Shown here in pieces: positions 190 through 20,861 of a DNA stretch of 21,415 nucleotides (position 1 is the stretch's first letter; the number at the start of each line of letters is the position of its first letter). The DNA comes from a virus. Location of the stretch: positions 1 to 21,415 of IMG/VR virus record IMGVR_UViG_3300048838_001034. The stretch is one strand, 5' to 3'. Under the pieces are notes generated by a model. That model was not told the DNA's origin. It worked only from the letters and a program-made list of their open reading frames with translations, and made no database searches. Both the position numbers and the translations under genes were made by a program.

Positions 190-310
190 TTGAGTCGTCC
201 TTGAAAAGATATTCAAAATCATCATCACGATGAGGATTTCCAGCCTTCAAAAATCCCAAAAAGAAAATAACAATGCCTAGCCAAGAAAAAAAAATAATCA
301 AAAAAATCAT
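176..310 (-). CDS. 44-aa single-pass membrane protein
   Basis: The ATG at 308-310 overlaps the annealing-protein stop codon as ATGA, the classic arrangement for translational coupling. The product starts with about 20 hydrophobic residues (IFLIIFFSWLGIVIFFLGFL), followed by an acidic tail (HRDDDFEYLFKDDSNASR). It is therefore a one-pass inner-membrane peptide with a short charged tail. No family is recognised. Position alone does not say whether it is a lysis factor, an exclusion protein or a membrane anchor. It is real mainly by context: tight overlap with the gene before and a 14-bp overlap with the gene after. Confidence 0.6.
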   Translation of the reverse strand: MIFLIIFFSWLGIVIFFLGFLKAGNPHRDDDFEYLFKDDSNASR

Positions 311-1413
311 AACTCAACCCCCACACTTTGGAGGAATGCCTTGAGCTCAAGTCTTACTTTGAATAATTCAGACATATTCTTAACAGGAGGGGACTTTTTG
401 AGCTCCTGATCAATCGATGCGATAGCTTTTCGCATCTGATCCTCACTCAATTGCTTGATCATTTTTCCTTTGATGTCTGGCACCCCTGGTATTTCACAAG
501 GGATGATTTCATCGTCTGGACTTTTCTTTGGTTGATCATCGGCCCCAGGAGCATGGTTTTTGATCTTTTTTGGCTCCTCAAGGGGGAACTCTGACGAATG
601 CTCATGAATGTCGTCTGGGGGGAAATCTTGGATGTCCACGTCGATCATATCCTCAGGCATTTTGTCAGGAGGAGGGGGAGTCCGGCCGCTTAACACGGCC
701 TTAACTTGAGCATATATGAAAGCAATTTGCTTGATGTTGGCTGGCTTTGGATCTTTTGCCATTTCAGACTTGAGCCATTGGCTGGCTTTTTCAAGCGTTT
801 CAGTATCCAAATCACCGATTTTTTTCCCTTTGGCTGACCCAAAAGGCATGATCACTTCATTAGGACTTAGAGGTTTTGACTCTTGTTTTGGTTGAGGGTT
901 TTCTCTTGGTTGTTGTTTTTCACCTTTGCCAGCTTTTTCCCCTCCATGAGCCTGATCAAAAGGACGATCCTCCTCCCCATCACGAGACTCAAGCAAATGG
1001 ACTTTCAAAAGGACAATTTTGAGAGCTAATGAATAGGCTTTTGCGAATGATTTGTCAGAGGTATCAAGAGCAAATGCGGCCCCTTTTGAAACGATGAAAT
1101 CCTCTGGGTTGTCGGCATTGATCCATTTGACTATGATCTTAATATCAGTCCGATACCAAGTGACTGTTTTGCCCCATTGATTTGTTTTTTCAAAGTCTGA
1201 GAGAGTGAATTCCTCAACATCTGGGAGCATAACAATCCCAGCCTCAGCCAGTGGCAAATGTAGAGCCGCCGCAACATCATCATGAGTGACGGCCTTGTAG
1301 CCTCGATCATTCTCACTCATTTTGACAAGAGCATCTTTTTGGACCGAAGTGACCTTTTTTTGCACCTCAATCATTCTTTGATAGATATTTTTGGATGTAG
1401 CTTTTTCAGCCAT
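307..1413 (-). CDS. erf: ERF-family single-strand annealing protein with duplicated C-terminal module
   Basis: This recombinase anneals complementary single strands, and in P22-type phages ERF circularises or recombines phage DNA. Residues about 10-150 carry the ERF pattern: a GYKAVTHDDV segment near 38-47, AEAGIVMLPD near 56-65, the region GAAFALDTSDKSFAKAYSLA at 111-130, and a following K-rich helix ending in an acidic ESRDGEEDR. After a Q/P/K-rich linker comes a module at about 187-242 (MPFGSAKGKKIGDLD), an acidic linker at 252-280, and a second diverged copy of the module at about 306-364. The first module resembles the MPFG-K-G-type small domains attached to nucleases and annealing proteins. 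The start is supported by GGGAGG six bases before the ATG. Confidence 0.88.
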   Translation of the reverse strand: MAEKATSKNIYQRMIEVQKKVTSVQKDALVKMSENDRGYKAVTHDDVAAALHLPLAEAGIVMLPDVEEFTLSDFEKTNQWGKTVTWYRTDIKIIVKWINADNPEDFIVSKGAAFALDTSDKSFAKAYSLALKIVLLKVHLLESRDGEEDRPFDQAHGGEKAGKGEKQQPRENPQPKQESKPLSPNEVIMPFGSAKGKKIGDLDTETLEKASQWLKSEMAKDPKPANIKQIAFIYAQVKAVLSGRTPPPPDKMPEDMIDVDIQDFPPDDIHEHSSEFPLEEPKKIKNHAPGADDQPKKSPDDEIIPCEIPGVPDIKGKMIKQLSEDQMRKAIASIDQELKKSPPVKNMSELFKVRLELKAFLQSVGVEL

Positions 1414-2668: not shown

Positions 2669-3313
2669 TTATTTCAAAGCCTTGGTTTTCTGAATAATAT
2701 TCTTTCGAGCAGCATTAGACTCACGTAAAACAGACCAATAGCGAGCGCCGCCTTTTCGTTTTGTGCCTATCATCCTATCGCGTGCCACCCACAAATTTAA
2801 GATCCTGACAGAACATCTAATGTTAGTCTCTGGATCATGTAGCTGCTCTGGTATCTCTAATCGACAGCCGTAGTATTGGGAGCTTTGCAGGCTCAATTGC
2901 AATAAGCCTCTGGAGATCACTAGACCGCCGTCTAGAGCGTGGCCGCCAAGCATACAGTAGCCACGACCTTGCACGTATCTGCATCTGTCATATTTACACT
3001 TGGACGCGCACTCGTAGTATTTTGTTGCTGGATTAAAGCCGGACTCATAACGCGCCATGCTTGAAATAAGCATCATGTAAAAAGCTTTTCGCGATGCAGC
3101 TGTGTTTTTTAAGCCATAGGTAGCAGAGTCTTTTGGATGAACAAGCAAAAGGTCTTTGCCAAGCTCATCAATGGCTTTCGACAGTAGCGCTGTATATTCG
3201 CTCTGTGGCCAATCGACTCGATAAGCCTCCCCTGATGATAGGGGAGCTATTGGCTTTGAAAAAGAGACCGCTTTAAAGCTGAATAACATCATAAAAATAA
3301 GTATTGTCCTCAT
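2669..3313 (-). CDS. Secreted lytic transglycosylase / lysozyme-like peptidoglycan hydrolase
   Basis: This enzyme probably cleaves the glycan strands of peptidoglycan at lysis. Residues 1-19 form a signal peptide or signal anchor (basic MR then hydrophobic ILIFMMLFSFKAVSF). The SLT-like core has the catalytic glutamate E90 in SSMARYESGFNP, then GLVISRGLLQLS at 130-141 (equivalent to the S-GL-Q motif), then a conserved DPETNIRCSVRILN helix at 160-173. Six cysteines (102, 106, 111, 120, 150, 167) suggest disulfides and a periplasmic site of action. It is the last gene of the long minus-strand operon, 5 bp after a small exported protein. An SD of GGAG type precedes the ATG. Confidence 0.8.
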   Translation of the reverse strand: MRTILIFMMLFSFKAVSFSKPIAPLSSGEAYRVDWPQSEYTALLSKAIDELGKDLLLVHPKDSATYGLKNTAASRKAFYMMLISSMARYESGFNPATKYYECASKCKYDRCRYVQGRGYCMLGGHALDGGLVISRGLLQLSLQSSQYYGCRLEIPEQLHDPETNIRCSVRILNLWVARDRMIGTKRKGGARYWSVLRESNAARKNIIQKTKALK

Positions 3314-5364: not shown

Positions 5365-6228
5365 TTATTGATAGTACTCTTCGACAACAATATATCCTAA
5401 TCCCCCAAGTCCTCCGGCAAAACCATTAGATCCAGCACTCCCTGCTGTACCAGAAGCGCCTATAGAATATGAATAACTTCCACTTGGGTTGTTAATCAAA
5501 GCCTCGATATAACCGCCACCGCCGCCGCCGGATCCAGTGTTGTTATTTGTAGCTGTGTTTTGACCGCCGCCGCCGCCGCCGGATCCTGAGTTAGTTATTG
5601 CAGCGTTGCCACCTACCCCTTGGGCACCGCCGCCACCGCCGCCGCCAAAAAAAGAGTTGCCGCCATCTGAGCCTTTTACTGCAGCACCACTACTTGCGTT
5701 TCCAGAATTGCCGCCGCCGGATCCACCTGCCAAAGCAAAAAGTCGTATTGCAGGACTATTTATAACAACCGTACCACCTAACCCTGGGTTACCAGTTGAT
5801 GCGTTGCCACCGCCGCCGCCATTGCAAGTTAAAAGGGACGTACCAAAAGTTGTTTGACCTCCTGTACCGCCGCTTGTTTGACCTCCTGTACCAGATCCCG
5901 CACCGCCGCCACCGCCGCCAACCATTCTTATCCTTATATATTTGACACCGGCTGGCGTCGTATATGTTCCTGATCCAGATGTTAATCTTTGAACCGTGGG
6001 GGGGGTGAAGTTTGTCTTTGCATCAGTCACAGCCCCTGCTGCAATCTTTCCAGTTGTTACTGCTAGCTCCTGAAGCATTGCAGTTGAAATTGAAAGAGCT
6101 GAAAGTACATATGTTTTAATCTGAGATGCTGTCACTCTATAGGTCTGAATGCCGTCGTCACCTGGCAAATTCAAATCATCCGTGACTGAGTCTCTTAGCT
6201 GTAGGTCTGTTATTTTTTTTGTTGCCAT
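5365..6228 (-). CDS. Tail fibre / receptor-binding protein with polyglycine-rich tip
   Basis: Residues about 4-48 are fibre-like (KITDLQLRDSVTDDLNLPGD, then RVTASQIKTYVLSAL), as found where fibres attach to baseplates. Residues about 78-103 are the strand GTYTTPAGVKYIRIRMVG that typically precedes glycine-rich tips. The rest, to residue 287, is dominated by runs of glycine with short S/T/N/A interruptions. Such domains form polyglycine-II-like adhesin tips in T4-type gp38 proteins, where the loops decide host range. The DNA has in-frame GGC/GGT-type triplet runs (CCGCCG on the plus strand) and three copies of a GGATCC-linked motif, making it prone to slippage and recombination. SD is GGGGAGG. 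Confidence 0.8.
   Translation of the reverse strand: MATKKITDLQLRDSVTDDLNLPGDDGIQTYRVTASQIKTYVLSALSISTAMLQELAVTTGKIAAGAVTDAKTNFTPPTVQRLTSGSGTYTTPAGVKYIRIRMVGGGGGGAGSGTGGQTSGGTGGQTTFGTSLLTCNGGGGGNASTGNPGLGGTVVINSPAIRLFALAGGSGGGNSGNASSGAAVKGSDGGNSFFGGGGGGGAQGVGGNAAITNSGSGGGGGGQNTATNNNTGSGGGGGGYIEALINNPSGSYSYSIGASGTAGSAGSNGFAGGLGGLGYIVVEEYYQ
5511..5725. repeat. CCG triplet runs with recurring GGATCC motif in the fibre gene
   Basis: On the plus strand, runs of (CCG) or near-CCG triplets end in GGATCC at about 5521-5535, 5563-5585 and 5711-5724, with further CCG runs near 5629-5645. The repeats encode glycine runs. Length change by slippage would stay in frame and alter the adhesin tip. Confidence 0.8.
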
Positions 6229-6787: not shown

Positions 6788-7975
6788 CTATGCCTCCACT
6801 AATTCAACACGCTCAAGAGCAACCTCGAAAAGATCATCATATTCGGCATCAAAAACCGCTGAGCTATAACTTGCCCCAGGCTCCACGTCGTCGTTGATCA
6901 CGTCTGTCGTATATTCCAAAAGGACCTGAGAGGCCCACGGAGCATCAACAACGGTGAAATATCTCTGAGGCTCGAAATTGCGTCCAAGCCTGTATTTTGC
7001 TGCAATGTTTTCCAAAAGCTTTGACTTGGTATCGTCTGGATTTCCGATCACGACTTGGTTGTTTTCTGAAAGCGTGATTGTCATTTTCAAACCGACCTGA
7101 ATTCTGTTCGGTAGGTTATATTTGAAATCAAATGATTGCCCATTTGAAAGGACAATTGACTCAGACTCAGTGCCTTGAGTGACGGCACCGGCAACGGTGA
7201 TTTCCGAAAGTAGGGTGCAAATGGCCTCTTTTGTTGTGGCATATTCTGCATTGTCGCCCCCCCCTGAAAGTGTAGCACCTGAAACAGTGGCACCGACATT
7301 CGTGTCGTTGTCCGTGTAGGCAAGAGCAATTGAATTGCCAGCCGTGCCCCCAGCAATGGCCATGATTTCAACCTTGGCACCTACCGCGCGGGCCTTAACA
7401 AGTGCCCCAGCGGTCGCATGAGCATTGATTTGTGCCGCCAAACTCGTTGCCGTGGCTGAATTTGATGTCGCTGCTTGGAATGTCCCAGCCCCAGGAGTCG
7501 CGGCCCCAGTCTGAGCCGTGAAAACCGTGGCACCTACTGTGATCGAGTCGTCTGTCCCTGAAACTAAATTTGCATAATTTGTGATCGTCACTAGACCTCT
7601 GGCATGGATACCGTCGTCCGCGTCAACGCATACATGGATCTTGCCAGCATCGGCCTCAAGCATTGGTTTCACGCTTGCAATGTATCCCTCAACCCCAAGC
7701 TTTTCGACGACCCCAGGACTTGTCACGACAGGTCTTGAAATTCGCTCATTCATCAATGTGATGTATTGCTGCAATTTCAAAAATATTTCAGAGGTTTTGA
7801 CCTCATTCTCTTGTAGCCTTTGAGCCAGCGCATAGAAATACTTATAGAAATTTGTCCCAACGAAAGTCTCATAAGTGTATGAGGTGCCGAATTGGGTGTT
7901 GATTTCATTCATTATCGAAATCATGATCGTTTCGATTGTTGCGGGGGTGTAGCCCGCCTCTTGTGAGAATGGCAT
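6788..7975 (-). CDS. Baseplate J-like protein carrying the shared inserted domain
   Basis: This baseplate wedge protein has 395 aa. Residues 1-100 resemble the J N-terminus (PATIETIMISIMNEINTQFG, then a helical ALAQRLQENEVKTSEIF segment). The J body begins around AGKIHVCVDADDG (111-122). It is interrupted at about 127-241 by the beta-rich domain that also occurs in the sheath and a head protein, and then resumes (TTKEAICTLLSEITVAGAVT, and later FKYNLPNRIQVGLKMTI). The C-terminus has IAAKYRLGRNFEPQRYF and VDAPWASQVLLEY, typical of J-family ends. A GAGG sequence precedes the ATG. The gene lies between a small baseplate protein and the gpI-position gene, as in P2/Mu gene order. Confidence 0.78.
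   Translation of the reverse strand: MPFSQEAGYTPATIETIMISIMNEINTQFGTSYTYETFVGTNFYKYFYALAQRLQENEVKTSEIFLKLQQYITLMNERISRPVVTSPGVVEKLGVEGYIASVKPMLEADAGKIHVCVDADDGIHARGLVTITNYANLVSGTDDSITVGATVFTAQTGAATPGAGTFQAATSNSATATSLAAQINAHATAGALVKARAVGAKVEIMAIAGGTAGNSIALAYTDNDTNVGATVSGATLSGGGDNAEYATTKEAICTLLSEITVAGAVTQGTESESIVLSNGQSFDFKYNLPNRIQVGLKMTITLSENNQVVIGNPDDTKSKLLENIAAKYRLGRNFEPQRYFTVVDAPWASQVLLEYTTDVINDDVEPGASYSSAVFDAEYDDLFEVALERVELVEA
7253..7597 (-). repeat. Shared inserted-domain segment, copy in the baseplate J-like gene
   Basis: Encodes residues about 127-241 (begins GLVTITNYANLVSGTDD, ends TLSGGGDN). It matches segments of the sheath (12407-12760) and head-protein (15579-15938) genes in protein and partly in DNA. 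Exact DNA matches: 7290-7323 equals 12450-12483 (34 nt), 7404-7432 equals 15742-15770 (29 nt), and 7416-7438 equals 12576-12598 (23 nt). Confidence 0.9.
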
Positions 7976-7978
7976 TTG

Positions 7979-8293
7979 TTACCTCGCTACCAAACCAGTG
8001 GATGTTTCCTCTGGGCTCAAGTTGAAATTGTACTGACTAAACAACGCCTCAACGGTTTCAACGACCGATGAAACATTGATCCCCCTATTTGCTAAGACCT
8101 CAATCAAATAAGATTTGAAACTCTCATTTTGAAACTTGAAGTCCTCGCTCAAAAAGTACTTAAGATCGATACCAAGGTCTTTGGCATATTCTAAAGCCCC
8201 TAATTGGACTGAAAGGATATTTGCCGCTTTCATGGTCTGGGTGTCTAGGACGCCCATGTCTGTCCCTGTTTCAGCACTCACAATGTCGATCAT
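7979..8293 (-). CDS. Putative small baseplate protein (gp25/XkdS position)
   Basis: A 104-aa protein whose ATG overlaps the preceding stop as ATGA, with AAAGGAG upstream. It contains LEYAKDLGIDLKYFLSEDF followed by a helical segment (NESFKSYLIEVLANRGINVS). This loosely recalls the gp25/XkdS pattern of a G-D core followed by a helix and the RI--V strand. The position immediately before the J-like gene fits that role. The match is weak and the family assignment is uncertain. Confidence 0.45.
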   Translation of the reverse strand: MIDIVSAETGTDMGVLDTQTMKAANILSVQLGALEYAKDLGIDLKYFLSEDFKFQNESFKSYLIEVLANRGINVSSVVETVEALFSQYNFNLSPEETSTGLVAR

Positions 8294-8634
8294 TTCAGGG
8301 CTCCTTTCAGTGTATCCAATTCAGCCTTGATTGAATTCAGTGTAGCAACATCCGTGGCCAATGTGGGAGGGGGAGCCGTCGTTGGTCCAGTCATGCCAGC
8401 ACCTATTGAGGTCAGTGTCGTTGCAATTTGACCAACCGCCGCCGAAAGCTTTTCGATTGTTGTTTTCAAGTCACTCACCGACAAAGTCAGATAGTACGCT
8501 TTGCCATTTTGAATGATCAAAAGCCCATCACTTGCCTGTTTCCCTTCACTTAAGACCTGAGCCTCAGTGATCGTTGCCCCTTCACAAGTGACAATCCCAG
8601 CCGCCGAACACGTTGCATCTAAAATCTTAGACAT
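8290..8634 (-). CDS. Hypothetical baseplate-region protein
   Basis: A 114-aa protein starting at the ATG 8632-8634, which has CGGGGG seven bases upstream. A longer reading frame to 8688 runs inside the preceding gene and has no SD. The N-terminus holds two cysteines (ATCSAAGIVTCEGATI), then IIQNGKAYYLTLSVSDLKTT, a predicted helix with QIATTLTSIGAG, a proline-rich turn (GPTTAPPPTL) and a final helix (LNSIKAELDTLKGALK). No family is named with confidence. The helical ends suggest an oligomeric baseplate component. It overlaps its neighbours by 8 bp and 4 bp. Confidence 0.6.
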   Translation of the reverse strand: MSKILDATCSAAGIVTCEGATITEAQVLSEGKQASDGLLIIQNGKAYYLTLSVSDLKTTIEKLSAAVGQIATTLTSIGAGMTGPTTAPPPTLATDVATLNSIKAELDTLKGALK

Positions 8635-9067
8635 ATTCAACCCCCGAGTAAAGCCAGCTTGCACGAGTGTTGAGATACCAGGCCGCATAGTCCTTCACGC
8701 GCCCCTCATCCGTAAGGGAGCCTGGCAATATTAGTCCAGGCGAAACGAAATAGTTTCCCGCAAGCTTCACCTTGGTTTTTGCAATGATTGTGGCAATTGG
8801 GACAACAAGGTCCAATGTGAAATCATACACTAGACCATTGGCCTCAAATACCTCCCAAGGCTTTCCCTCAAAGGTTTTGATTGCTATAGCCCCCCCAACA
8901 AGAGGTTTTCCAATTAAGGAATAGTCAGGCGCGTTTTGGAGTGTCTCAAATGTATAGTAGTCCTCACGAGGAGCAAGGCTCAGACCTGTCAGGCTCATGA
9001 AATCAGATATTTCACCGACTTTGCTTTCACGAAATATGAAAAAGCCATGCTTGCACTGAATTCTCAA
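8627..9067 (-). CDS. Hypothetical baseplate-region protein
   Basis: A 146-aa protein beginning MRIQCKHGFFIFRESKVGEI and ending with ASWLYSGVEYV. It is rich in beta-type residues, as expected of a baseplate or hub protein, but no family is recognised. Translation starts at TTG 9065-9067, which overlaps the preceding stop (TTGA) and is preceded by GAGGAGG, so a non-ATG start is well supported. It lies in the block of small genes between the tape measure and the J-like protein, where hub and spike proteins are encoded in other myoviruses. Confidence 0.6.
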   Translation of the reverse strand: MRIQCKHGFFIFRESKVGEISDFMSLTGLSLAPREDYYTFETLQNAPDYSLIGKPLVGGAIAIKTFEGKPWEVFEANGLVYDFTLDLVVPIATIIAKTKVKLAGNYFVSPGLILPGSLTDEGRVKDYAAWYLNTRASWLYSGVEYV

Positions 9068-9330
9068 GACTCCTCCTCAAGGGGGAGACCCAAAAAGACA
9101 TCATTTGCCTGATCGATATAAACAGCGTGATCCTCAAACTCGAAAGGATTTTTTTCCCCAAGGTTGAGCATGAGCATGATACCCTCATAAGTGATCGAGA
9201 CACCATTTCCTTTTGTTGCAAGGATTGTCTTTTCACCGACCCCATCAAAATCTAAAATGTACTCAACGGACACAAGTCCAAGAGCCTCAAAGTCTGTCAG
9301 GTTGAATATTTTAAACCAGTTATATTGCAT
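9064..9330 (-). CDS. Small hypothetical baseplate-region protein
   Basis: An 88-aa acidic protein (MQYNWFKIFNLTDFEALGLV at the start, ending LPLEEES). It has AGGAGG at SD distance and overlaps the next gene by four bases. It contains mainly beta-strand-like segments (VSVEYILDFDGVGEKTIL, GVSITYEGIMLMLN). No homologue is recognised. Context suggests a hub or baseplate component. Confidence 0.6.
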   Translation of the reverse strand: MQYNWFKIFNLTDFEALGLVSVEYILDFDGVGEKTILATKGNGVSITYEGIMLMLNLGEKNPFEFEDHAVYIDQANDVFLGLPLEEES

Positions 9331-9333
9331 ATA

Positions 9334-9885
9334 TTAGCCTCCTGGTAGGGTGCCGATAACACCTGGCACTGACGGTATTCCCGCCGCTTTTTGAGGTTGT
9401 TTTTGGCCCCTAGACAATTCAATTTTGATTGTCAGGAGCTCATTGGATGCATTTTGATTGACCGAATATGAATGAAGCACACCTCGAAAAACAGTCGTTG
9501 CACCATGCAAATAGGTGATTGCGTATTCTTTTGAGGTCACTTTTTCATAGAGCAAATCAATCATTGCTGACAAAAGAGTCAGACCAAGTGAATTCTTTTT
9601 CGCTACCAAGTTAATTGAAACTACCGACCCAATGGCCTTTTGATTGACCTCAGGGGTTGACCCATCTGAAAGGCTCTCTGTCTCGGTCTCAATATCCACA
9701 TTTTTGTCCTCCGAATCGATATAGATACCAGTGAGAGTTTCACTCAAATAAATTGGGATGGGGGGTTGAGCAATCACAGTAGGGATTTGGGAAATCACTG
9801 GGATTTTTGAAATGAAGTCTCCAAAGCCAGTATCAGCAAGCTTTGAAAACTGAAATATGATAACAGGATCAATTCCTCCCAGCAT
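9334..9885 (-). CDS. Putative baseplate hub / distal tail protein
   Basis: A 183-aa protein starting at the ATG 9883-9885, which has the best SD in the region (AAGGAGG six bases upstream). The frame also stays open for 15 codons upstream inside the tape measure gene but has no SD there. Residues about 50-160 are beta-rich (TLTGIYIDSEDKNVDIETET, IGSVVSINLVAKKNS, ATTVFRGVLHSYSVNQNAS), recalling proteins that bridge tail tube and baseplate. The C-terminus is Q/K/P/G-rich and probably flexible. The role is inferred from its place directly after the tape measure gene. Confidence 0.55.
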   Translation of the reverse strand: MLGGIDPVIIFQFSKLADTGFGDFISKIPVISQIPTVIAQPPIPIYLSETLTGIYIDSEDKNVDIETETESLSDGSTPEVNQKAIGSVVSINLVAKKNSLGLTLLSAMIDLLYEKVTSKEYAITYLHGATTVFRGVLHSYSVNQNASNELLTIKIELSRGQKQPQKAAGIPSVPGVIGTLPGG

Positions 9886-9886
9886 G

Positions 9887-10882
9887 CTATTCCTCCTTGC
9901 CGCCAAACCAGCCTTTGACTCCCCTGACAATTGGGGACTTCATGAGCCTGTCAATTGCAGCGGATACTTTGTCAACGAATGGTGTTAATTTGTTGATGAG
10001 GTTTCCAAGTAGTCCAATGCCATTCTCGACCAACATCATGATTTTGTCCACGCTTGTCGATATGGCTTGCAAGTCTTGATATGATCTAATGCGGGCATTC
10101 TCACGCTCAAGAGCGACCCTTTCGGCCTTGTCCCTTGCCCTGATCATTCCCTCATTGATAACCCCTCCCTTTGTCAGGAGGTCTTTGAATTCACGGCCCG
10201 CGCCCAATGCGTCCTGTAGGTCAGCAAGAGCCGCCGTCCCCTCAATTGACTTAGTAGCCTTAGCCGATGTCACCTTGTCAATGCCGGTGATCTTAGCAAG
10301 CTTTGCAAAGCCAGCCTCACCTTGCTGTAGGAAATCAGCCATCTTGAGGATTTGTTTTTCCCCAAATACTTGTTGTTGAATGAGGACTTGTTGGTTTCGA
10401 TCCATTTTTTGCAATTGATTGATGAAACTGAAAAAGGCCTCAGCCGTGTCCTCTTGGGAAATGTAGTTTTTGACAGCACTATTTGCTGGGTTGTTGGGGT
10501 CTATTTTTGCTTGAGCGACAGCCCCTTGAAACTTGTTGATCAGGGTGAAAAGGTTGTCCTGATCAAGGCCGGTTGCCTTTGCAAGCGTCACGAGTTTTGA
10601 AAGCTTGCCTGTAGTCGTATTGAATTGAGCGGCATTTGTGGCCAAGTCGTCGGATGTCTTAAGTGTCCGATCAATAGCCTCTTGCACTTCTTTGAGGGGA
10701 TTCAAAAGCTTGTCGATTAGACCCAAAGCAATACCCGCGATGCCTCCCCCTTTGAGTACATTCGTGAGACCTTTTCCAAAGCTTTTTGCAAGCCTTGTGA
10801 AACGACCTTGCAAGGCCTTTTCCATTGACTGCAAATCTTTGTTATCAAGTTTTGGGATGATTTTTAAAACTTCACTAAACAC
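9887..10882 (-). CDS. Tail tape measure protein (very short)
   Basis: This protein sets tail length. It starts at GTG 10880-10882 with CAGGGGG six bases upstream, giving 331 aa. A longer frame to 10936 is read inside the chaperone extension and is unlikely to be used. Features: a helical N-terminus, a glycine/hydrophobic segment (GGGIAGIALGLIDKLLNPLK), long alpha-helical Q/K-rich stretches (LQKMDRNQQVLIQQQVFGEK), and a C-terminal amphipathic region ending GVKGWFGGKEE. With about 0.15 nm of tail per residue this predicts a tail of roughly 50 nm. The start overlaps the end of the frameshifted chaperone by 8 bp, the usual arrangement. Confidence 0.8.
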   Translation of the reverse strand: MFSEVLKIIPKLDNKDLQSMEKALQGRFTRLAKSFGKGLTNVLKGGGIAGIALGLIDKLLNPLKEVQEAIDRTLKTSDDLATNAAQFNTTTGKLSKLVTLAKATGLDQDNLFTLINKFQGAVAQAKIDPNNPANSAVKNYISQEDTAEAFFSFINQLQKMDRNQQVLIQQQVFGEKQILKMADFLQQGEAGFAKLAKITGIDKVTSAKATKSIEGTAALADLQDALGAGREFKDLLTKGGVINEGMIRARDKAERVALERENARIRSYQDLQAISTSVDKIMMLVENGIGLLGNLINKLTPFVDKVSAAIDRLMKSPIVRGVKGWFGGKEE

Positions 10883-11000
10883 GCAAAACCCCCTGAGAAG
10901 GATACAGTGCATCATAAAAGGCCATGTTGATAGCATCTTTTAAGAGCATGTCAGGATGTTTTGCTAAGACTCCCCTAATATCAACTGACCAATTTCCTAG
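10875..11000 (-). CDS. -1 frameshift extension of the tail assembly chaperone (gpGT-like)
   Basis: After slippage at 11000-11006 the -1 frame reads 41 codons (begins LGNWSVDIRGVLAKHPDMLL, ends DALYPSQGVLRV) and stops at TAG 10875-10877. There is no good independent start for this frame. It fills the whole gap between the short chaperone and the tape measure start, and its stop overlaps the tape measure GTG region by 8 bp. The fused product would be about 165 aa. Gene order, slippery site, open frame and overlap all agree with the conserved chaperone frameshift known in tailed phages. Confidence 0.82.
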   Translation of the reverse strand, partial: LGNWSVDIRGVLAKHPDMLLKDAINMAFYDALYPSQGVLRV

Positions 11001-11371
11001 TTTTTTTTTTCAGCCGATGTCAAAAAATTGATTTCCATTGCTGCAATTTCCTGGACTACGGCATCCAAAATTTCAATGAATTCCTTAGGCGAAAGCTTGG
11101 CCGTGTTTTCCTGAGTGAAAGGCACTCCATTGGTATCCGCTGCAAATTTCATCAAAGAATTGATTTCATCACGCTCAAGAGTCACTACCAAGACAGCCTC
11201 ACGGACGATCTTTTTTCGATCGGCGACAGGCATTTCCTCAATCATTGAAAGGAATTCCTCAAGACTTTTTCCCATGTACGTGGGGAGCATCTTAAGTCCG
11301 ATCAAAAGCTTGATGTATGATTGCAAGGCCCAATATGAGTCAAGGCCTCTAATGGGCAAAACCTTCATCAT
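10997..11371 (-). CDS. Tail assembly chaperone, short form (gpG-like)
   Basis: A 124-aa helical protein encoded between tail tube and tape measure, where double-stranded DNA tailed phages keep their tail assembly chaperones. It ends ...TSAEKKN, where the last codons are GAA AAA AAA AAC TAG. The A-run forms a canonical -1 slippery heptamer (A AAA AAC, 11000-11006) right before the stop. Ribosomes that slip continue into a 41-residue extension. The start ATG overlaps the tube stop codon (ATGA), with GAGG upstream. The short and long forms are expected to be made in a fixed ratio and to bind the tape measure during tail assembly. Confidence 0.8.
   Translation of the reverse strand: MMKVLPIRGLDSYWALQSYIKLLIGLKMLPTYMGKSLEEFLSMIEEMPVADRKKIVREAVLVVTLERDEINSLMKFAADTNGVPFTQENTAKLSPKEFIEILDAVVQEIAAMEINFLTSAEKKN
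11000..11006 (-). promoter_or_regulatory. Programmed -1 frameshift slippery site
   Basis: On the minus strand the bases read A AAA AAC within a run of ten A (11001-11010), followed directly by the zero-frame stop TAG (10997-10999). Both tRNAs can re-pair in the -1 frame. I did not identify a definite downstream stem or upstream stimulatory SD. Confidence 0.8.
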
Positions 11372-11787
11372 GATTTGTGGACCTCAGATGAATCGAATGT
11401 TTCAAACTCAAGGCTCACATTCATGCTTTCGGCTGTCTCGTCGAGAGTCAATTGCTGAGGCTTATTTGAAAGCACGGCATTTTTAGCCATCTTTGATGAG
11501 CCATCTGTCCGATCAATGCAATAACACTCAAGTCGTGTCTGGTCTTCATAGGCACTGTCGAGCACCGATTTCAAGGCCGCGCTCATGTTAAGAATTGGAA
11601 TGGTCCAACGCTTTGGATCTTTTAAGCCATCCTTGTAGGCAAGACCAACGCGGTTTTTCGCATTCGCTCCCCTTGTGAGTCTGTTTCGCTCGGGGTCCTC
11701 GATTTGCAATTCAGCAACGTGCTCGAATTCGTAATCAACGCCGCCGATTTTGACACCAAAGTCGCAATTGTAGAGTTTGAAAATCAT
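11368..11787 (-). CDS. Tail tube protein
   Basis: A 139-aa protein that would polymerise into the inner tube under the sheath. It directly follows the sheath gene and has the right size for a tube subunit. Segments include FGVKIGGVDYEFEHVAELQI, then TRGANAKNRVGLAYKDG and KRWTIPILNMSAALKSVLDS, and a final beta strand SMNVSLEFETFDSSE. The pattern of two beta-sheets with a central helix fits the tube fold. Its ATG has GGGGGG at good spacing, and its stop overlaps the chaperone start by four bases. Confidence 0.78.
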   Translation of the reverse strand: MIFKLYNCDFGVKIGGVDYEFEHVAELQIEDPERNRLTRGANAKNRVGLAYKDGLKDPKRWTIPILNMSAALKSVLDSAYEDQTRLECYCIDRTDGSSKMAKNAVLSNKPQQLTLDETAESMNVSLEFETFDSSEVHKS

Positions 11788-11800
11788 TTGTCAGCCCCCC

Positions 11801-13096
11801 TTATAAAGTCTGTCTAATTTCGCCGAAGATCCTCCAAAGGGCTTTCGGCTCAGATACGTTGATATAACCGCTTGCGATGAAATTCTCTTGCTCAAGTTTG
11901 ACCTCGATCACACCGGCCTCAATCCATTGCTTTTCGATGTAGCTTTCGACAACCTTTTGGAGCTCATCCTCAAGTAGTGCCGCCGATTTTTTCGTGTAGT
12001 TTGGTTGATTGCCTGAAATGTAGCTGAGAGCCTTTGATTGCAAGTCGATTTCAAGGTTGCGAATGATGTACGGTGCAACAATAGCTTTGCCGCCGCAAGC
12101 AAATAGAGCAAGACGCTCAGAGAATTCAGAGTCGGAAATCACAAAGCTGATCTTGTCGTCAAAGAGCGCATTGGCTGAGCCAAGAGTCGCCACGTCGTCG
12201 GCAAAAGGCATTGTGATGTATTGTTGATTGAGCCAGCTAAGAGCATTCGACAACATTTTTCCGAAAGCAAAAAACATGTTTTTTGCTTTGTTGGTTGTTG
12301 TTGTATGGAATGCCGCTCGGTTTTCAATTGCAGCTTGATCAGCAAGGAAAGTATCGTCGTCGGATGATACTCCGATAACACCTTTGAAAGCCCCAGCAAA
12401 AAGCCCAGCACCGCCTGAGAGTTTCCCCCCAACAAGGCCAGCAAGCGTAGCACCGACATTCGTGTCGTTGTCCGTGTAGGCAACCGCGATGTCGTTTCCG
12501 GCCCATCCTGATTCGATTGCTGTGATTGTGACTACAGCCCCAACCGCTACAGCCTCAACCAATTCACTTGCCGTGGCATGAGCATTGATTTGTGCCGCAA
12601 GGCTTGCCGCCGCCGTTGCATTGTCGGTTGCCGCTTGAAATGTGGCATCCCCTGGGGTTGCCGCTCCCGCTTGAGCAACAAAGCTGACACCCGCTACAGC
12701 GACAACATCGTCGTCGCCTGAGACAAGTGCCGAATAGTCGGTGATCGTGACAGTGCCATCCGCTTGAGCGACAGTGATGTCCTCATCGGCAAAGTCAGAT
12801 GAAATTAGTAGAGTGAAAAAATCAGACTCGTGCCCCTCAAGAGCCGCCTCAAGATCGAGGTCGTCCATTGGTAGGATGTAGACTCTATTCATTCCCGCAT
12901 TGAATAGTTGTTGAGCCTCAGCGTTGTCAGTCAAAGCCGCAACCTGGGCCATCGAAGTGCAAAGAGTAATCACTCCTGTTTGAACCCCTCCCTTCGGGCT
13001 CACAACAACACAAGCCTGTTTCAAAAAGGCTGTACTTGCGGCGGGGGTCGGGTTGATTGCGGTTATCGGGAAAAAATAATCTAAAAGAATATTCAT
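11801..13096 (-). CDS. Tail sheath protein carrying the shared inserted domain
   Basis: The contractile sheath, 431 aa, establishes the myovirus type. The N-terminal part (ACVVVSPKGGVQTGVITLCT, then MNRVYILPMDDLDLEAALEG and FFTLLISSDF) and the C-terminal part (ALFACGGKAIVAPYIIRNLE, KALSYISGNQPNYTKKSAAL, and the final NVSEPKALWRIFGEIRQTL) follow the sheath pattern. Residues about 113-230 form a beta-rich domain found also in the baseplate J-like and a head protein. The host sequence resumes with FKGVIGVSSDDDTFLADQAA. Sheaths of other myoviruses carry surface domains in this part of the fold, so exposure on the outside of the tail is likely. SD is GAGGAG. Confidence 0.83.
   Translation of the reverse strand: MNILLDYFFPITAINPTPAASTAFLKQACVVVSPKGGVQTGVITLCTSMAQVAALTDNAEAQQLFNAGMNRVYILPMDDLDLEAALEGHESDFFTLLISSDFADEDITVAQADGTVTITDYSALVSGDDDVVAVAGVSFVAQAGAATPGDATFQAATDNATAAASLAAQINAHATASELVEAVAVGAVVTITAIESGWAGNDIAVAYTDNDTNVGATLAGLVGGKLSGGAGLFAGAFKGVIGVSSDDDTFLADQAAIENRAAFHTTTTNKAKNMFFAFGKMLSNALSWLNQQYITMPFADDVATLGSANALFDDKISFVISDSEFSERLALFACGGKAIVAPYIIRNLEIDLQSKALSYISGNQPNYTKKSAALLEDELQKVVESYIEKQWIEAGVIEVKLEQENFIASGYINVSEPKALWRIFGEIRQTL
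12407..12760 (-). repeat. Shared inserted-domain segment, copy in the sheath gene
   Basis: Encodes sheath residues about 113-230 (begins DGTVTITDYSALVSG, ends GGKLSGGA). It has a 34-nt exact match with the J-like gene copy (12450-12483 with 7290-7323) and a 23-nt match (12576-12598 with 7416-7438). The protein alignment covers the full domain. Confidence 0.9.
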
Positions 13097-13100
13097 GGTT

Positions 13101-13496
13101 TCACTCCTCGCTGAATTCTATACTTGTTATGCTACCCGTTTCAGGATCATATTGGCCATCAAAAAAGTAAATGAAGGAAAAACCGCGCTGGACCTTGTCC
13201 CTGTATCGGCGGGAATTAACCTCAAAATCCAAAAAGAAAAGATCCTTTGTGTCCTCTAGGTCAGCCTCGGCAATCTTTTTCGAGAAAAACCCAAATGGGA
13301 GTTTTCCAGACGTGCTGAAAAGGACCACATTTCCCGAAACCATAGCTTTGACTCGACCGTCTTTGATTGCATTTCGGGCACTTTCAACCTCAACGAAAAG
13401 GCACTCTTGCTCACCGCTTTCGCCTGGCTCATCATAGGTGACTTTTTTCACCCCAAAAATCTTTTGAAATTTGTCTGAGAGTAGTTTTTCAAACAC
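13101..13496 (-). CDS. Putative tail completion / terminator protein
   Basis: A 131-aa protein located between the gp10-like neck gene and the sheath, where tail terminator proteins are encoded. Segments such as LFVEVESARNAIKDGRVKAM and YRDKVQRGFSFIYFFDGQYD alternate strands and helices in a way compatible with the terminator fold, but no certain family match is made. The start is GTG 13494-13496 with GAGGG upstream. It overlaps the preceding gene by 8 bp. Confidence 0.5.
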   Translation of the reverse strand: MFEKLLSDKFQKIFGVKKVTYDEPGESGEQECLFVEVESARNAIKDGRVKAMVSGNVVLFSTSGKLPFGFFSKKIAEADLEDTKDLFFLDFEVNSRRYRDKVQRGFSFIYFFDGQYDPETGSITSIEFSEE

Positions 13497-13989
13497 GTTT
13501 CACCCTCGCTTTAATTGCTTTAAACATTTGTCCAGTGTCGAAAAGGTGACGATCAAACCCCTTGTCGTCCGCTGTATTGGCACTATTGCCCCCATACTCT
13601 TGTTGCAAGATTGGATTTCGGACAATTGCTTGCAACAAATTCTCAACCCGCTTGATGCTAATGCCTGGCTTTTTCGTGACAAGCTGCAAAAAGTATCTTG
13701 TGAATTTCATGATTTGAGAGTTTTGCTCTTGGAAAGGCCTTAACAAAAGATTGATGTTTAGACGTTTCATGTTTTCAACAAGGATTTCCCCTGTCGTCAA
13801 AGGGCCTTGCTCTCTTGATGTCCTACGGATTGGGCCCCCAGCATACGACCTTAAGTCGGGCTGATCGAATCGACCTTGGACAATTGGATCACGGTGAGGC
13901 TTGTCCTCAAGGACACCGACCTCAAACTCATAGCTACCTATTCGGTGCTGTAGTTTCCTTGACCATGATTTGCCGAGCTCTACTTTCAT
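13489..13989 (-). CDS. Head-tail joining / virion morphogenesis protein (HK97 gp10 / Mu gpG-like)
   Basis: A 166-aa protein probably needed to join head and tail. The C-terminal GFDRHLFDTGQMFKAIKARV (about 144-163) is the family signature, in which a DTG turn is followed by a short helix and strand. A polar loop with SREQGPLTTG is in the middle. The ATG overlaps the preceding stop (ATGA) with GGGGAG upstream. The neighbours are a small connector-like protein and a putative tail terminator, which is the usual neck cluster. Confidence 0.72.
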   Translation of the reverse strand: MKVELGKSWSRKLQHRIGSYEFEVGVLEDKPHRDPIVQGRFDQPDLRSYAGGPIRRTSREQGPLTTGEILVENMKRLNINLLLRPFQEQNSQIMKFTRYFLQLVTKKPGISIKRVENLLQAIVRNPILQQEYGGNSANTADDKGFDRHLFDTGQMFKAIKARVKRV

Positions 13990-14252
13990 TCGAGTACACT
14001 CCCCAGATAGATTGTAGACTTGCCAACACTTTGAGCAACAACATCTGTCCCCTTTGCTTTGAAAAGAGCGACAAGCCTGTCGTGCAATACGCTGATCGAC
14101 TCACGATCAATGAGGATCTTTGCCAATTCATCGTATGACGCTTGATTGTAGACATTGATCTCAAGACTCAAAAAATTGATTGAGTCGTATTCCTCATCTG
14201 TGAGGGTTGTGGCCCCTATGAATTGCAAAATGCCATTGAGCCAGTTTCGCAT
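13986..14252 (-). CDS. Small head-tail connector candidate
   Basis: An 88-aa, mainly helical protein (LTDEEYDSINFLSLEINVYN, then SYDELAKILIDRESISVLHD). It is the first gene after the capsid gene and the terminator, and neck adaptors of similar size occupy this position in other tailed phages. No family is recognised with confidence. TGGGGG precedes the ATG by five bases. Confidence 0.5.
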   Translation of the reverse strand: MRNWLNGILQFIGATTLTDEEYDSINFLSLEINVYNQASYDELAKILIDRESISVLHDRLVALFKAKGTDVVAQSVGKSTIYLGSVLE

Positions 14253-14260
14253 GTTTCCCC

Positions 14261-14305
14261 CAAAATAAAAAAGCCCTGGTCAGGAGTGACCTCCAAAACC
14301 AGGGC
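14261..14305 (-). terminator. Rho-independent terminator directly after the capsid gene
   Basis: Read on the minus strand: GCCCTGGT, an inner GGAG/CTCC pair, ACCAGGGC, then TTTTTTATTTT. The 8-bp perfect outer stem spans 14273-14305 and the U-tract lies at 14261-14272. It sits 35 bp after the capsid stop and inside the structural operon. It would cap the capsid transcripts and allow only partial read-through into neck and tail genes, unless there is antitermination or a second promoter. Confidence 0.9.
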
Positions 14306-14339
14306 AACCCCTTGTTGTTCTAATTCAAAACCCTCAGCC

Positions 14340-15200
14340 TTAGCCGAAAGTATGAGGCTTGCGGATGATACCCTTGTATGCAAGGACCTCAACCATTGCT
14401 GAGCCCATTAGGAAGTTATGCCAAACCTCCATGTTTCGAGCGTCAACGCCTTGGTCAGCAAGCTTTGGCAAAGTCGTGTAGTGCAATTTGATTTGATCCA
14501 AGTTAAGGATCATATATCCATTTGCACCGCTTGGAGTGACTTCGCTTGGCAATTCTGCAATAGAGTAGTTTCCTCCGATTGCTTGCAACAAGCTTGATCG
14601 GAAATTGACACCGTTTTCATACATACCACAAAGCTTTTGGAGCATTGTCGATCCGTAGAATACGATCACTTTTCGGCCCGCAACCGCATCGGCAAGGATC
14701 TTTTCAGATACTACAGACGCATGAAGTGCTGGCAAGTGCCCGCCGGTTGATGCCAATGCACTTGAGCTCTCAAGCAAGTAGTTCGCGTCACCTGACCAAT
14801 ATAGGCCATTGTTGACAACGTCTGAGTCGCTTGTACCCTCACCCAACAAAATCAAGTCGTCCATTAACTTTTGGTTTTCATCCAAAACTTGTCTGACAAC
14901 GTCCTCATTTTGGTTGCGATCTTGCAACGTCGATTGAACGAATTGAGACGCAAGGAAATATTTTTTGAATATTTTTTGCTTCTCAACAACGCTGATTTGA
15001 TGCATGTGAGTGTCTTTTGGATTGTAGTGCTGATTTCGGATGTTTCCGACAGCCTCAAGACGCTTGAAATTGATTTTACCTACCTGTTCAGGATAGGACT
15101 GACTTTTTCCAAGCAATACCGGATAGAATGGTTGATACGTTGGAACGTAGTCAGCCATGATTTCATCTGTAGTCCTTAGAACGATCTTGTTGGTAGACAT
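14340..15200 (-). CDS. Major capsid protein
   Basis: 286 aa from the ATG 15198-15200, which has AAAGGAG seven bases upstream. A TTG two codons upstream is too close to that SD. The sequence shows a capsid-type N-terminus (IMADYVPTYQPFYPVLLGKS), a central part with FVQSTLQDRNQNEDVVRQVL and DDLILLGEGTSDSDVVNNGL, and a C-terminal P-domain-like part ending VEVLAYKGIIRKPHTFG. It is consistent with HK97-fold capsids of the family with separate scaffolds. There is no protease gene or delta domain nearby, so the protein may not be cleaved at maturation. Context (scaffold and decoration-like genes upstream, strong terminator downstream) fits the most highly expressed gene. Confidence 0.83.
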   Translation of the reverse strand: MSTNKIVLRTTDEIMADYVPTYQPFYPVLLGKSQSYPEQVGKINFKRLEAVGNIRNQHYNPKDTHMHQISVVEKQKIFKKYFLASQFVQSTLQDRNQNEDVVRQVLDENQKLMDDLILLGEGTSDSDVVNNGLYWSGDANYLLESSSALASTGGHLPALHASVVSEKILADAVAGRKVIVFYGSTMLQKLCGMYENGVNFRSSLLQAIGGNYSIAELPSEVTPSGANGYMILNLDQIKLHYTTLPKLADQGVDARNMEVWHNFLMGSAMVEVLAYKGIIRKPHTFG

Positions 15201-15202
15201 GG

Positions 15203-15382
15203 TCAAACTCCTTTGTCTTTGCTAAATTTACTAAACTTTGGATGACTTTCATAGTCACCTGAATTCATAACTTGATCAACCTCTTTTGAGGACTCCTGGA
15301 CTGTCCCAGGCTCCTCAGGTATGATTGCAACCTTTTTTTCAGCATCCTCATTCGAGGGCTTTTGAGGTTTCCTTTTTGCCAT
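15203..15382 (-). CDS. Small charged protein before the capsid gene
   Basis: A 59-aa hydrophilic protein (MAKRKPQKPSNEDAEKK at the start, HPKFSKFSKDKGV at the end) that looks disordered. It starts at ATG 15380-15382 with AAGGGGG upstream. A longer frame exists but is inside the preceding gene. It ends three bases before the capsid start codon. No family is recognised. It may be a small head accessory protein. Confidence 0.6.
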   Translation of the reverse strand: MAKRKPQKPSNEDAEKKVAIIPEEPGTVQESSKEVDQVMNSGDYESHPKFSKFSKDKGV

Positions 15383-15383
15383 C

Positions 15384-16196
15384 TTAGAGGCCCCCTTGCA
15401 TATCAACTACGCAAGCGGCGCATTCAGTGCCGTCCTCTTTGATGCCTGTTTTTGGCCCATCAACATACATTGCATCGGACACCGTACTGAAACCGCTCAT
15501 CGCAATGTCAGCTTTGCCAGTAGTTCGATTGATGTACATTTTCGCACCCTTCACAATATAGGCAATGTCGTCAACATCGTCTGAGCCGCCTGTCAATTTG
15601 CCATCGTCAAGCCCGCTAAGAACAATCCCAGCCGACCCATGCAAATTGTTGTAAACGACAGCAACATCGTGTCCAGTCCCAACACCCTCAACAATAGCAT
15701 GCAAGGTCACTACAGCCGCGCTTGCGACAGCATAGACAGCGGCCCCAGCGGTCGCATGAGCATTGATTTGGGTTGCGATACTTGTCGCGGTGGCATCGTT
15801 GCTAGATGCCGACTGAAATGTAGCATCCCCAGGAGTGACCGCCGAAGCTTGAGCCGTGAATGTCGTTGCACCGACCTGTAGAGTATCGGCACCGCCTGAA
15901 ATCAAATTTTGATAATTCGTGATCGTCACTACAGCGGTTGCACGTTTCAAATGCGCTTGAACTGGGACTTTGATTCCTGTTCTAAGAACATCTGTTTTTT
16001 TCGTGTCTGAAAGTGACTTTCCTTGTGAGACTCCCATTCTCATGCCAGCCGATGCAAGCAATGAAGGTAGGCCAGTGCTGGCCATGCTCACGCAAAGCCC
16101 AGCGGGAAAACTCGCTGGGTCTACATTGAAAGCCTCAACATCCTTGACTGAGCTCATTGAGCCCGCAAGGACTACTTTGCTTGCATCTTGGGACAT
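15384..16196 (-). CDS. Putative head decoration protein with the shared inserted domain
   Basis: A 270-aa protein paralogous to the product of 16196-16618. Shared pieces are FNVDPASFPAGLC (paralogue NFAADPATFLAGLC), GKSLSDTKKTDVLRTGIKVP (paralogue GASLSDTKRTTFVRRGAQVP), a TTGKA turn, and a C-terminal GGL. Between these, residues about 87-206 are the beta-rich domain also present in the sheath and J-like proteins, absent from the paralogue. The position between scaffold and capsid suggests a decoration or vertex protein. The start shares one base with the preceding stop, with GGAGG upstream. Confidence 0.68.
   Translation of the reverse strand: MSQDASKVVLAGSMSSVKDVEAFNVDPASFPAGLCVSMASTGLPSLLASAGMRMGVSQGKSLSDTKKTDVLRTGIKVPVQAHLKRATAVVTITNYQNLISGGADTLQVGATTFTAQASAVTPGDATFQSASSNDATATSIATQINAHATAGAAVYAVASAAVVTLHAIVEGVGTGHDVAVVYNNLHGSAGIVLSGLDDGKLTGGSDDVDDIAYIVKGAKMYINRTTGKADIAMSGFSTVSDAMYVDGPKTGIKEDGTECAACVVDMQGGL
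15579..15938 (-). repeat. Shared inserted-domain segment, copy in the head-protein gene
   Basis: Encodes residues about 87-206 (begins TAVVTITNYQNLISGG, ends DGKLTGGSDD). A 29-nt exact match links it to the J-like copy (15742-15770 with 7404-7432). The C-terminal half is more diverged than in the other two copies. Confidence 0.85.
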
Positions 16197-16618
16197 TATA
16201 AGCCTCCAGGGAAATCAATCAAAGCTGCACCGTCTGAAATCACGGCACCGGCCTCATCATAAGCTGTCAAAGTGCTCGTTCTATAGAACGCATTAACCGC
16301 CGTGCCTGAGGCAACCGCTTTCCCAGTGGTTGTTGAAATTTGGACTTGAGCCCCTACTGTCGGGGTGAAACCATTTGCCAAAAGAATTGGTACTTGAGCC
16401 CCACGTCTGACAAAGGTTGTCCGTTTTGTGTCTGAAAGTGATGCTCCTAAGGAAATCCCAATTTTTGAGCCATCCGCTGCAGCAAGAGAGACAGTGCCAT
16501 CACTTTTCAAGTGACCGCAAAGGCCAGCAAGGAATGTTGCGGGATCAGCCGCAAAATTGTCTGACTCAATGATATTGGATTTATGAGAGCCCATGTGGAT
16601 TGTTGTTGCACTATGCAT
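16196..16618 (-). CDS. Putative head decoration protein without the insertion
   Basis: A 140-aa protein. The segments SDNFAADPATFLAGLCGHLK and IGISLGASLSDTKRTTFVRR, and the ending LIDFPGGL, align with the longer neighbour, with a simple GFTPTVGAQVQISTTTGKAV loop where the neighbour has about 120 extra residues. It is therefore the natural empty-site form of the same head protein. The beta-rich composition and position after the scaffold gene suggest a decoration or head fibre protein. TGGGGG lies six bases before the ATG, supporting this start over an ATG eight codons later. Confidence 0.68.
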   Translation of the reverse strand: MHSATTIHMGSHKSNIIESDNFAADPATFLAGLCGHLKSDGTVSLAAADGSKIGISLGASLSDTKRTTFVRRGAQVPILLANGFTPTVGAQVQISTTTGKAVASGTAVNAFYRTSTLTAYDEAGAVISDGAALIDFPGGL

Positions 16619-19250: not shown

Positions 19251-20861
19251 TTAACGCTTGCCTTTGAGGAGTCCGATCCATTCAAGACAGCGAGCTAATG
19301 AGTCGGGGGAGTCGTCAAACTTGGCCCCGTACTCGTATTTAACTACCTGATCAGTGTAGACCTTGTCTGACTCTTTGCTCAAGTGAATCATATGGGCATA
19401 GGAGCCAGCCGACATGATCGAGGCATGCTTGTCCGAGTCTGAATGCCTACCAACGACCCCAATGCCAAAAGGGTGCAAAGCTTGTGAAAGCTGGGCAATT
19501 GGTTGTTGTCCAAACTTGTTGGTTTCAAAGCAAAGCCTTGTCACTTTTCTGGCCCTTAGTATTGGGACCAATTCATCAAGACAATGATACCAGGCTTTTT
19601 TCCATGCATGCCCTTGGACCGCGACGCCGTCCATGTATCCCTTAAGAATTGAAATTGCCGTGTAGTCTCCCCCCTCAGATGGGTCAAGGAAAGCAACCGA
19701 CTCACCGACAGGGAATTTGTCCACATAACGGATTTTTGAGAATGCCATCGAGCCATCAATCGGCACTCTAAGGTGATAACTCATCTCGATTGAATTTGAG
19801 TCAACCCCAGCCGATTTCATGGCATCAAGGTCAGCATCGAGCTCAGCAATTGAGCCCCAAGGCACCTCAAGCTTTTTTAAATTGCCTCTTAATTCAGCAT
19901 ATAGATCGAATTGATGGGCTGGCTGGCCAATGATCACGATGTTTTTGCAAAGCTTGTAGGCCTCATCATACTTTTTTTTGACAAGTGTCCTCATGGCCTC
20001 GGATGTATCCTCCTCGGTCACTGGGTCGTCCATAGTTATCCGCTTTGGATGTCGTCCCCTGAATGAGCTCTTGATTGTCAGGACCTCGACAGAGTGATCC
20101 TTTCCAACAAGTCCCTTAACCCTGAGGCAAGTCGAGTTTTCTTTGTCTAATTCAACCCCATTTGCTTTCAAAGAATTGGCAATCTCTTGAATGATTGCTG
20201 TATTTCGAGCCTTTGATTTTGAAATAATCAGGTTGGTCTCACTTAGATCAGACCCTAAGTAGGTATGATCAAACCAGTCTGAATACACGTCGTATCCTGT
20301 CCCAAGGACAGTCATATAGTCAGTTTTTCCGTAGCCCCTTGCCCCTAGCAAAAGTCTTGGCTCCTCCCCATCTGTCCAAAAAGATTTCATTTCAATTTGT
20401 TTTGGATATGGTTTCGGATAGCCCGCATTGACGCAATATTGCTCAAATGAAAGCTTTTGAGGTTTTGATTGTGATTGAGGGGGGGGAGGAATTTCAACAT
20501 CCCTGTCCCTCCATTCATCTGGACGCCTGTTTTTCAGCCAAAAGATTGCAGCGGTGACATCTGGAGGGAAGTGCTTTTGGGTTTTGGCCCTGACAACTAT
20601 GCCCTCATACAAGAAAAGCTTTTCCTCGGGGTGACTGTATCCTGTAGCCCTACGAAAAAGTGATGATACGACTAGGTCGTCGGCAACGTCCTTGCCCTCT
20701 TTTAGGGAGTGCAAAAAATCAGGTTGCGTAGATTTCCAATATTGAATTGTCCTAAGGCTCACCCCAATGGAGGATGCAACCTCTCTGTCGGTTTTTCCGG
20801 CACCGTAGAGGGCTGCAATTTTTGCACTTAAGGCTGAATTAAATTTCGTTGGTCTCCCCAT
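19251..20861 (-). CDS. terL: Terminase large subunit with N-terminal small-subunit-like domain (TerS-TerL fusion)
   Basis: The packaging motor and nuclease. Residues 1-120 read like a complete small terminase: helix-turn-helix (RPTKFNSALSAKIAALYGAG, then DREVASSIGVSLRTIQYWK) followed by RRATGYSHPEEK and PPDVTAAIFWLKNRRPDEWR. After a Pro/Gln/Lys linker (121-140) comes TerL: Walker A GARGYGKT (173-180), Walker B ITMDDP (275-280), IIGQP coupling motif (310-314), then the RNase-H-like nuclease with D393 in FLDPSEGGDYTA, E446 in CFETN, and the acidic KFDDSPDSLA (514-523). The reading frame is uninterrupted. No SD precedes the ATG. Confidence 0.88.
   Translation of the reverse strand: MGRPTKFNSALSAKIAALYGAGKTDREVASSIGVSLRTIQYWKSTQPDFLHSLKEGKDVADDLVVSSLFRRATGYSHPEEKLFLYEGIVVRAKTQKHFPPDVTAAIFWLKNRRPDEWRDRDVEIPPPPQSQSKPQKLSFEQYCVNAGYPKPYPKQIEMKSFWTDGEEPRLLLGARGYGKTDYMTVLGTGYDVYSDWFDHTYLGSDLSETNLIISKSKARNTAIIQEIANSLKANGVELDKENSTCLRVKGLVGKDHSVEVLTIKSSFRGRHPKRITMDDPVTEEDTSEAMRTLVKKKYDEAYKLCKNIVIIGQPAHQFDLYAELRGNLKKLEVPWGSIAELDADLDAMKSAGVDSNSIEMSYHLRVPIDGSMAFSKIRYVDKFPVGESVAFLDPSEGGDYTAISILKGYMDGVAVQGHAWKKAWYHCLDELVPILRARKVTRLCFETNKFGQQPIAQLSQALHPFGIGVVGRHSDSDKHASIMSAGSYAHMIHLSKESDKVYTDQVVKYEYGAKFDDSPDSLARCLEWIGLLKGKR

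Follow-up and report, generated by a model that had tools for sequence, protein, structure and literature searches.

The window analysed here (IMG/VR record IMGVR_UViG_3300048838_001034) is linear, of viral origin, and 21,415 bases long, and the element in question is a domain of ~118 residues, here referred to as module A, that is inserted in three of the virion proteins encoded by it. The structural genes are located on the minus strand, in an order that runs from the terminase (19251-20861) to the fibre (5365-6228). The tail tube protein is 73-75% identical to those of the Bdellovibrio phages phi1402 and MAC3UK, and 16 core proteins of the window have collinear homologues in these two phages, which places it among the phi1402-like dwarf myophages. 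Judged by these sequence comparisons, the phage is a small contractile-tail myophage akin to phi1402 and MAC3UK, and a Bdellovibrio-type bacterium would, by extension from these relatives, be its host. For the comparisons described below, all proteins that carry the module were aligned across ~18 related genomes with whole or nearly whole records. The genes and module copies concerned are as follows.

6788-7975, minus strand: baseplate J-like (wedge) protein, 395 residues, carries module A; the gene order here is gp25-like, J-like, gpI-like, fibre
7253-7603, minus strand: module A, baseplate copy (hmmsearch, 170 bits)
11801-13096, minus strand: contractile tail sheath, 431 residues, carries module A; adjoins the tail tube gene, and the MAC3UK homologue is annotated as sheath
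12407-12763, minus strand: module A, sheath copy (hmmsearch, 162 bits)
15384-16196, minus strand: head protein H2, 270 residues, carries module A; lies between a scaffold-like gene and the major capsid gene
15579-15941, minus strand: module A, head (H2) copy (hmmsearch, 143 bits)
16196-16618, minus strand: H1, 140 residues, tandem paralogue of H2 without the module; ~40% identity to H2 (N-terminal part)

The assignment of 11801-13096 as the sheath is firm at the level of homology, since the domain-less sheath of the relative G013 matches Vibrio phage products annotated as "tail sheath protein" (E value, 5e-39), and the baseplate assignment of 6788-7975 is good by the same standard, since a domain-less J-like homologue matches a Dulem virus 29 product annotated as "baseplate complex protein" (E value, 2e-32). 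The product labelled a head protein in the initial annotation, which was made from the DNA alone, does carry the segment; its label can be refined, H2 being one of two tandem paralogues, the other of which, H1, lacks the segment. From its gene position and weak fold matches, H2 is a probable capsid decoration protein. Homologues of H1 are domain free in all relatives, and H1 provides a natural empty-site comparison inside the same genome. It was also observed that the H2 gene is absent from phi1402, MAC3UK, G001, and G013, and the duplication of the putative decoration gene would therefore have preceded or accompanied the gain of the module.

The three copies of module A share 52-66% pairwise identity, and their alignment contains 50 invariant columns, QINAHATA among them. 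A tblastn search of the window with the sheath copy returned exactly two other segments, with 67% (E value, 2e-36) and 53% (E value, 2e-27) identity and no internal stops, and these E values, together with the invariant columns, exclude a chance likeness. When the three carrier families were compared with each other by blastp, the matches were limited to the module segment; the proteins are therefore unrelated outside module A. This bears out the proposal in the initial annotation of one homologous domain in three unrelated virion proteins, and all three of its segments were located again, with the strand now given as minus and the ends placed at 7603, 12763, and 15941. An assembly artefact or tandem misassembly was considered and ruled out, since the copies differ at 34-48% of their residues and recur in many independent contigs. 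All copies of module A are acidic (net charge of -1 to -14; isoelectric point of 4.1-5.5), and, as far as composition goes, this fits the earlier suggestion of a change in surface charge without proving it. The guanine-plus-cytosine content of the insert exceeded that of the rest of the gene in 19/19 genes, a difference that may reflect an Ala/Gly-rich composition and that is not used as evidence here.

Relatives with empty sites give the junctions directly, and the surrounding protein sequence resumes in frame after the segment, as had been noted from the window alone. In the baseplate J-like protein, the filled site reads CVDADDG before the module and NAEYATTK after it, compared with CVDVDDG joined to AAGYDDVR at the empty site of G006. 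In the sheath, LISSDFADED precedes and GLFAGAFKGV follows the module, compared with LISSDFVAADLAD joined to LDVGTFKGV at the empty site of G001. Module A occupies the baseplate site in the window, G001, G002, G003, G004, G009, G018, and L101; in G006, G008, G013, G016, G017, phi1402, and MAC3UK, this site is cleanly empty. At the sheath site, eight genomes have A, three (G001, G013, and G016) have no insert, and G004, G009, G017, phi1402, MAC3UK, and L101 have a different module, here referred to as module B. At the head site in H2, A is present in nine genomes and B in G018 and L101, with G005 being empty. On a tree built from 16 core proteins, these distributions require a minimum of 4 state changes at the baseplate site, 6 at the sheath site, and 4 at the head site, that is, at least 14 in total. 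Even sister genomes differ: the window and G009 (100/100) carry A and B, respectively, in the sheath, and the baseplate site is filled with A in G003 yet empty in its sister G006 (86/88). The three states at fixed sites and the number of changes lend substance to the description of the module as mobile. The empty state is probably the ancestral one, since the more distant Dulem virus 29 and Vibrio phages give full-length, one-piece matches to the domain-less baseplate and sheath proteins.

When modelled alone with AlphaFold2, module A is predicted to fold as a unit (predicted local distance difference test [pLDDT] score, 95.8; predicted template-modelling score, 0.90), with a mixed alpha/beta architecture and a long helix at positions 48-61, and the term "beta-rich" in the initial annotation was in this respect inaccurate. 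The MAC3UK row was left out of the input for one structure prediction. In the model of H2 (pLDDT, 88.8), the elements of the module follow the same order as in the isolated model. An integral role of the segment in each carrier fold is ruled out by this independent predicted fold and by the empty sites, homologues of the carriers often being without the module. Both refuting conditions named in the initial annotation were examined in this way, and neither was borne out. The best Foldseek matches among the predicted viral proteins of BFVD were 189- and 737-residue proteins of RcTitan and gp68 of PhiJL001 (E value, 4e-9; template-modelling [TM] score, 0.77; 33% identity), and matches of lower rank carried annotations as major tail, major capsid, sheath, baseplate J-like, or nozzle protein. 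Matches in the PDB were weak (E values of 0.004-0.08) and mostly to phage sheaths and a nozzle protein, in addition to the outer domains of flagellins (9atl and 4nx9). A profile search also pointed, weakly, to the sheaths of the Agrobacterium phages Milano and 7-7-1 (8fop and 9hz7; residues ~97-191; E values of 0.0038 and 0.024), for which the Foldseek comparison was likewise weak (E value, ~0.03; TM score, ~0.5). No family in Pfam matched module A, and a PHROG search gave one weak match, to a family of no assigned function. Membership in the immunoglobulin-like (Ig-like) domains was rejected, as none of the Ig, FN3, or Big families of Pfam was matched at an E value of ≤10 and there was no notable match to an Ig fold. 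A flagellin-IN or FliD motif (PF07196-like) was likewise rejected, with no Pfam match and the weak Foldseek likeness to flagellin outer domains alone.

A tblastn search of 50,697 phage records with module A gave no match even at an E value of 10, and isolates with a close module A are therefore missing from that set; a search of the genome collection gave a single match, to a metagenome-assembled contig that is itself a phage of the same type. Distant copies were found in tail proteins, in one head-associated virion protein, and in sheaths of other phages, an example being tail tubular protein B of the Pelagibacter phage HTVC010P. Separately, a different phage, L093 (G020), was seen to encode at 7280-8470 (plus strand) a 397-residue protein with approximately three tandem A-like domains.

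Module B, with ~105 residues, differs from A and replaces it at two of the three sites, those in the sheath and the head. It is common to both, since the G004 and L101 sheath copies match the G018 head copy with E values of 2e-9 and 5e-17, respectively. The motifs AGN-I-l-Y and TA..l..aIna were seen in swapped order in A and B (B at L041:8464-8796 and L090:14113-14412). An hhalign comparison of A with B gave P values of 5e-4 and, after doubling of A, 5e-5, a weak result obtained with no shuffled control. From their sequences, A and B are possibly circular permutants of one another.

The copies also bear signs of exchange within genomes. On the domain tree, labels of the carrier proteins are intermixed, with 8 changes compared with a possible minimum of 2. 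We then compared how often copies use the same codon at positions with an identical amino acid, taking the expectation from codon usage: for copies within one genome, the frequency was 48% versus an expected 39%, and for copies of different genomes, it was 33-34% versus 32%. A codon permutation gave a pooled z of 7.4, with P < 0.05 for 8/14 pairs. Since copies within a genome share synonymous codons beyond expectation, exchange within genomes is suggested, and duplication or gene conversion, the simplest reading of these sequence data, is in line with the intragenomic spread or homogenisation put forward at the outset. A candidate agent is encoded elsewhere in the window.

307-1413, minus strand: ERF-family single-strand annealing protein (PF04404; E value, 7.5e-8, above the curated cut-off)

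This protein is 41% identical to phi1402 gp01, which is annotated as SSB, and it could plausibly mediate recombination between module copies.

Taken together, we consider it fairly probable that module A folds autonomously and serves as an exchangeable surface domain at fixed, permissive sites of the sheath, the wedge, and the capsid decoration protein in phi1402-like dwarf myophages. Homologous recombination, both inside one phage genome and between genomes, would spread the copies and keep them similar; the conserved stretch coding for QINAHA would help in this, as might the ERF annealing protein that the phage itself encodes. In its three contexts, the module would point to the outside, as additional domains of sheaths generally do and as the location of decoration proteins on the capsid suggests, and it would be dispensable for assembly. 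For extra sheath domains, an orientation away from the tube and a role in adsorption or stability have been proposed (PMC9230969), and phage Ig-like domains are exchanged, surface displayed, and, where studied, not essential for tube formation or infection (PMC9022992). As for function, we tentatively suggest, by analogy and at somewhat less than even chances, a multivalent, low-affinity surface coat in which hundreds of acidic domains on the head, tail shaft, and baseplate tune how the particle adsorbs to, or is retained near, host cells or matrix. Specific receptor binding would stay with the fibre, in which the C-terminal part shows a variation of its own.

5365-6228, minus strand: fibre-like protein, glycine-rich; approximately the first 50 residues are conserved in most relatives, and the remainder is variable

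Such a variable remainder is what would be expected of a receptor-binding fibre. It is also conceivable, although we regard it as rather unlikely, that A and B together form a cassette-like coat, in which at least two non-Ig modules, possibly permutants, are swapped at the fixed sheath, wedge, and decoration sites and homogenised within genomes by phage-encoded single-strand annealing to give one coordinated, switchable particle surface. Elsewhere in the window, 2669-3313 (minus strand) has a weak SLT transglycosylase match (PF01464; E value, 0.0011), and its product is probably a lysis protein.

Several observations weigh against an exchanged surface coat. Module A is poor in aromatic residues (3-7 of ~117), unlike many carbohydrate-binding modules, and the wedge insertion domain of cyanophage A-1(L) anchors a fibre instead of binding cells (PMC10966104). 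Outside the module, the PDB matches of H2, which include the decoration proteins of Pa193, E217, BB1, and lambda, are weak (Foldseek E values of at least 0.18). The domain tree is poorly resolved, with 2 of 21 branches starred, and direct site-to-site jumps are not individually proven by it; the codon test pools nonindependent pairs, of which 6/14 are not individually significant at 0.05. The A-1(L) example also makes a structural role the main rival, in which the inserted domains, as clamps or docks, lend stability to the sheath lattice, the capsid, and the fibre attachment and bind nothing outside the particle. That insertion (residues 81-180) follows an N-terminal helical bundle much as here and either keeps the long tail fibre in place or enters the hub. 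A stabilising effect on sheath discs has been proposed for extra sheath domains (PMC9230969), and the known sheaths of Milano and 7-7-1 may have a domain of the module A fold. Still, a clamp would have to serve three lattices of differing symmetry, each carrier works without the module in close relatives, and neither the A-1(L) sheath nor the A-1(L) baseplate proteins checked show a sequence match to A or B. We judge such a structural role unlikely.

Ranked next, and less probable again, is a nearly neutral promiscuous domain, with permissive surface loops accepting any compact domain and A and B spreading by recombination with no strong benefit. While the many empty sites, the two interchangeable modules, their patchy distribution, and the non-essential nature of phage Ig-like domains in the cases studied (PMC9022992) are what such a passenger would produce, decay or loss would be expected of a neutral insert when the genome is so tiny, and the three copies (~350 bp each) make up ~5% of a ~21-kb genome, with all frames intact and 50-70% identity kept over deep divergence. 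Least probable, in our view quite improbable, is an ancestral triple presence followed by independent losses, under vertical inheritance alone and with no mobility. It can draw on the fairly clustered baseplate copies on the domain tree (3 changes versus 6.3 in shuffles) but leaves the replacements by B and the codon sharing within genomes unexplained, and it is at odds with the intermixed labels on the domain tree and with the sites found empty in more remote phages (those of Vibrio, Dulem virus 29, and, for the baseplate, G008). An exchangeable surface domain at permissive sites remains the reading that we favour.

To our knowledge, nearly all promiscuous surface domains described in phages have Ig-like folds, and what they are for is a matter of debate. 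The filled and empty natural variants described here, together with isolated relatives (phi1402 and MAC3UK), make this purpose directly testable, and they document an exchange of cassettes at the protein level in the little-studied phages of predatory bacteria. We found no description of module A, or of its shared use in phi1402-like phages, in the open-access literature, which is weak evidence of novelty.

The closest parallel is provided by the promiscuous Ig-like domains that tailed phages carry (Fraser et al. 2006; see the review PMC9022992), which are non-essential, patchy, horizontally exchanged surface domains; module A is patchy as well and would resemble them in the other respects. 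They occur in fibre, baseplate, tail tube, capsid, and Hoc proteins (PMC9022992), and module A is likewise found in several unrelated classes, namely, sheath, baseplate, and head. However, module A has an alpha/beta fold with a long helix and no Ig sandwich, is an internal insertion rather than a C-terminal or frameshift fusion, and occurs as one family in three protein classes of one genome, alternating with a second module at two sites. Type 1 and type 2 tail sheaths (PMC9230969) similarly differ in whether the sheath core has an inserted domain away from the tube, but there the extra domains, mostly Ig-like, are treated as sheath features, whereas module A is also on the baseplate and head, and the empty, A, and B states coexist inside one small phage clade. 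The sheath domain of Milano and 7-7-1 has a position similar to that of module A, with a weak profile and fold match; in the available part of the reports on these phages, its recurrence in their other virion proteins is not described. RcTitan, PhiJL001 gp68, and HTVC010P tail tubular protein B are alike in fold or in holding a distant copy and differ in carrier proteins and phage groups; on the structural models, RcTitan may be a second case of two carriers in one genome. A survey of domain shuffling (PMC10684548) also indicates that structural tail proteins share and exchange domains, but it is a broad database survey, in the accessible portion of which no single phage is described as having defined empty sites in its sheath, wedge, and decoration protein. 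In summary, Ig-like domains already exemplify this kind of phenomenon; what is new is the fold, the breadth in a single tiny genome, and the natural empty and swapped sites.

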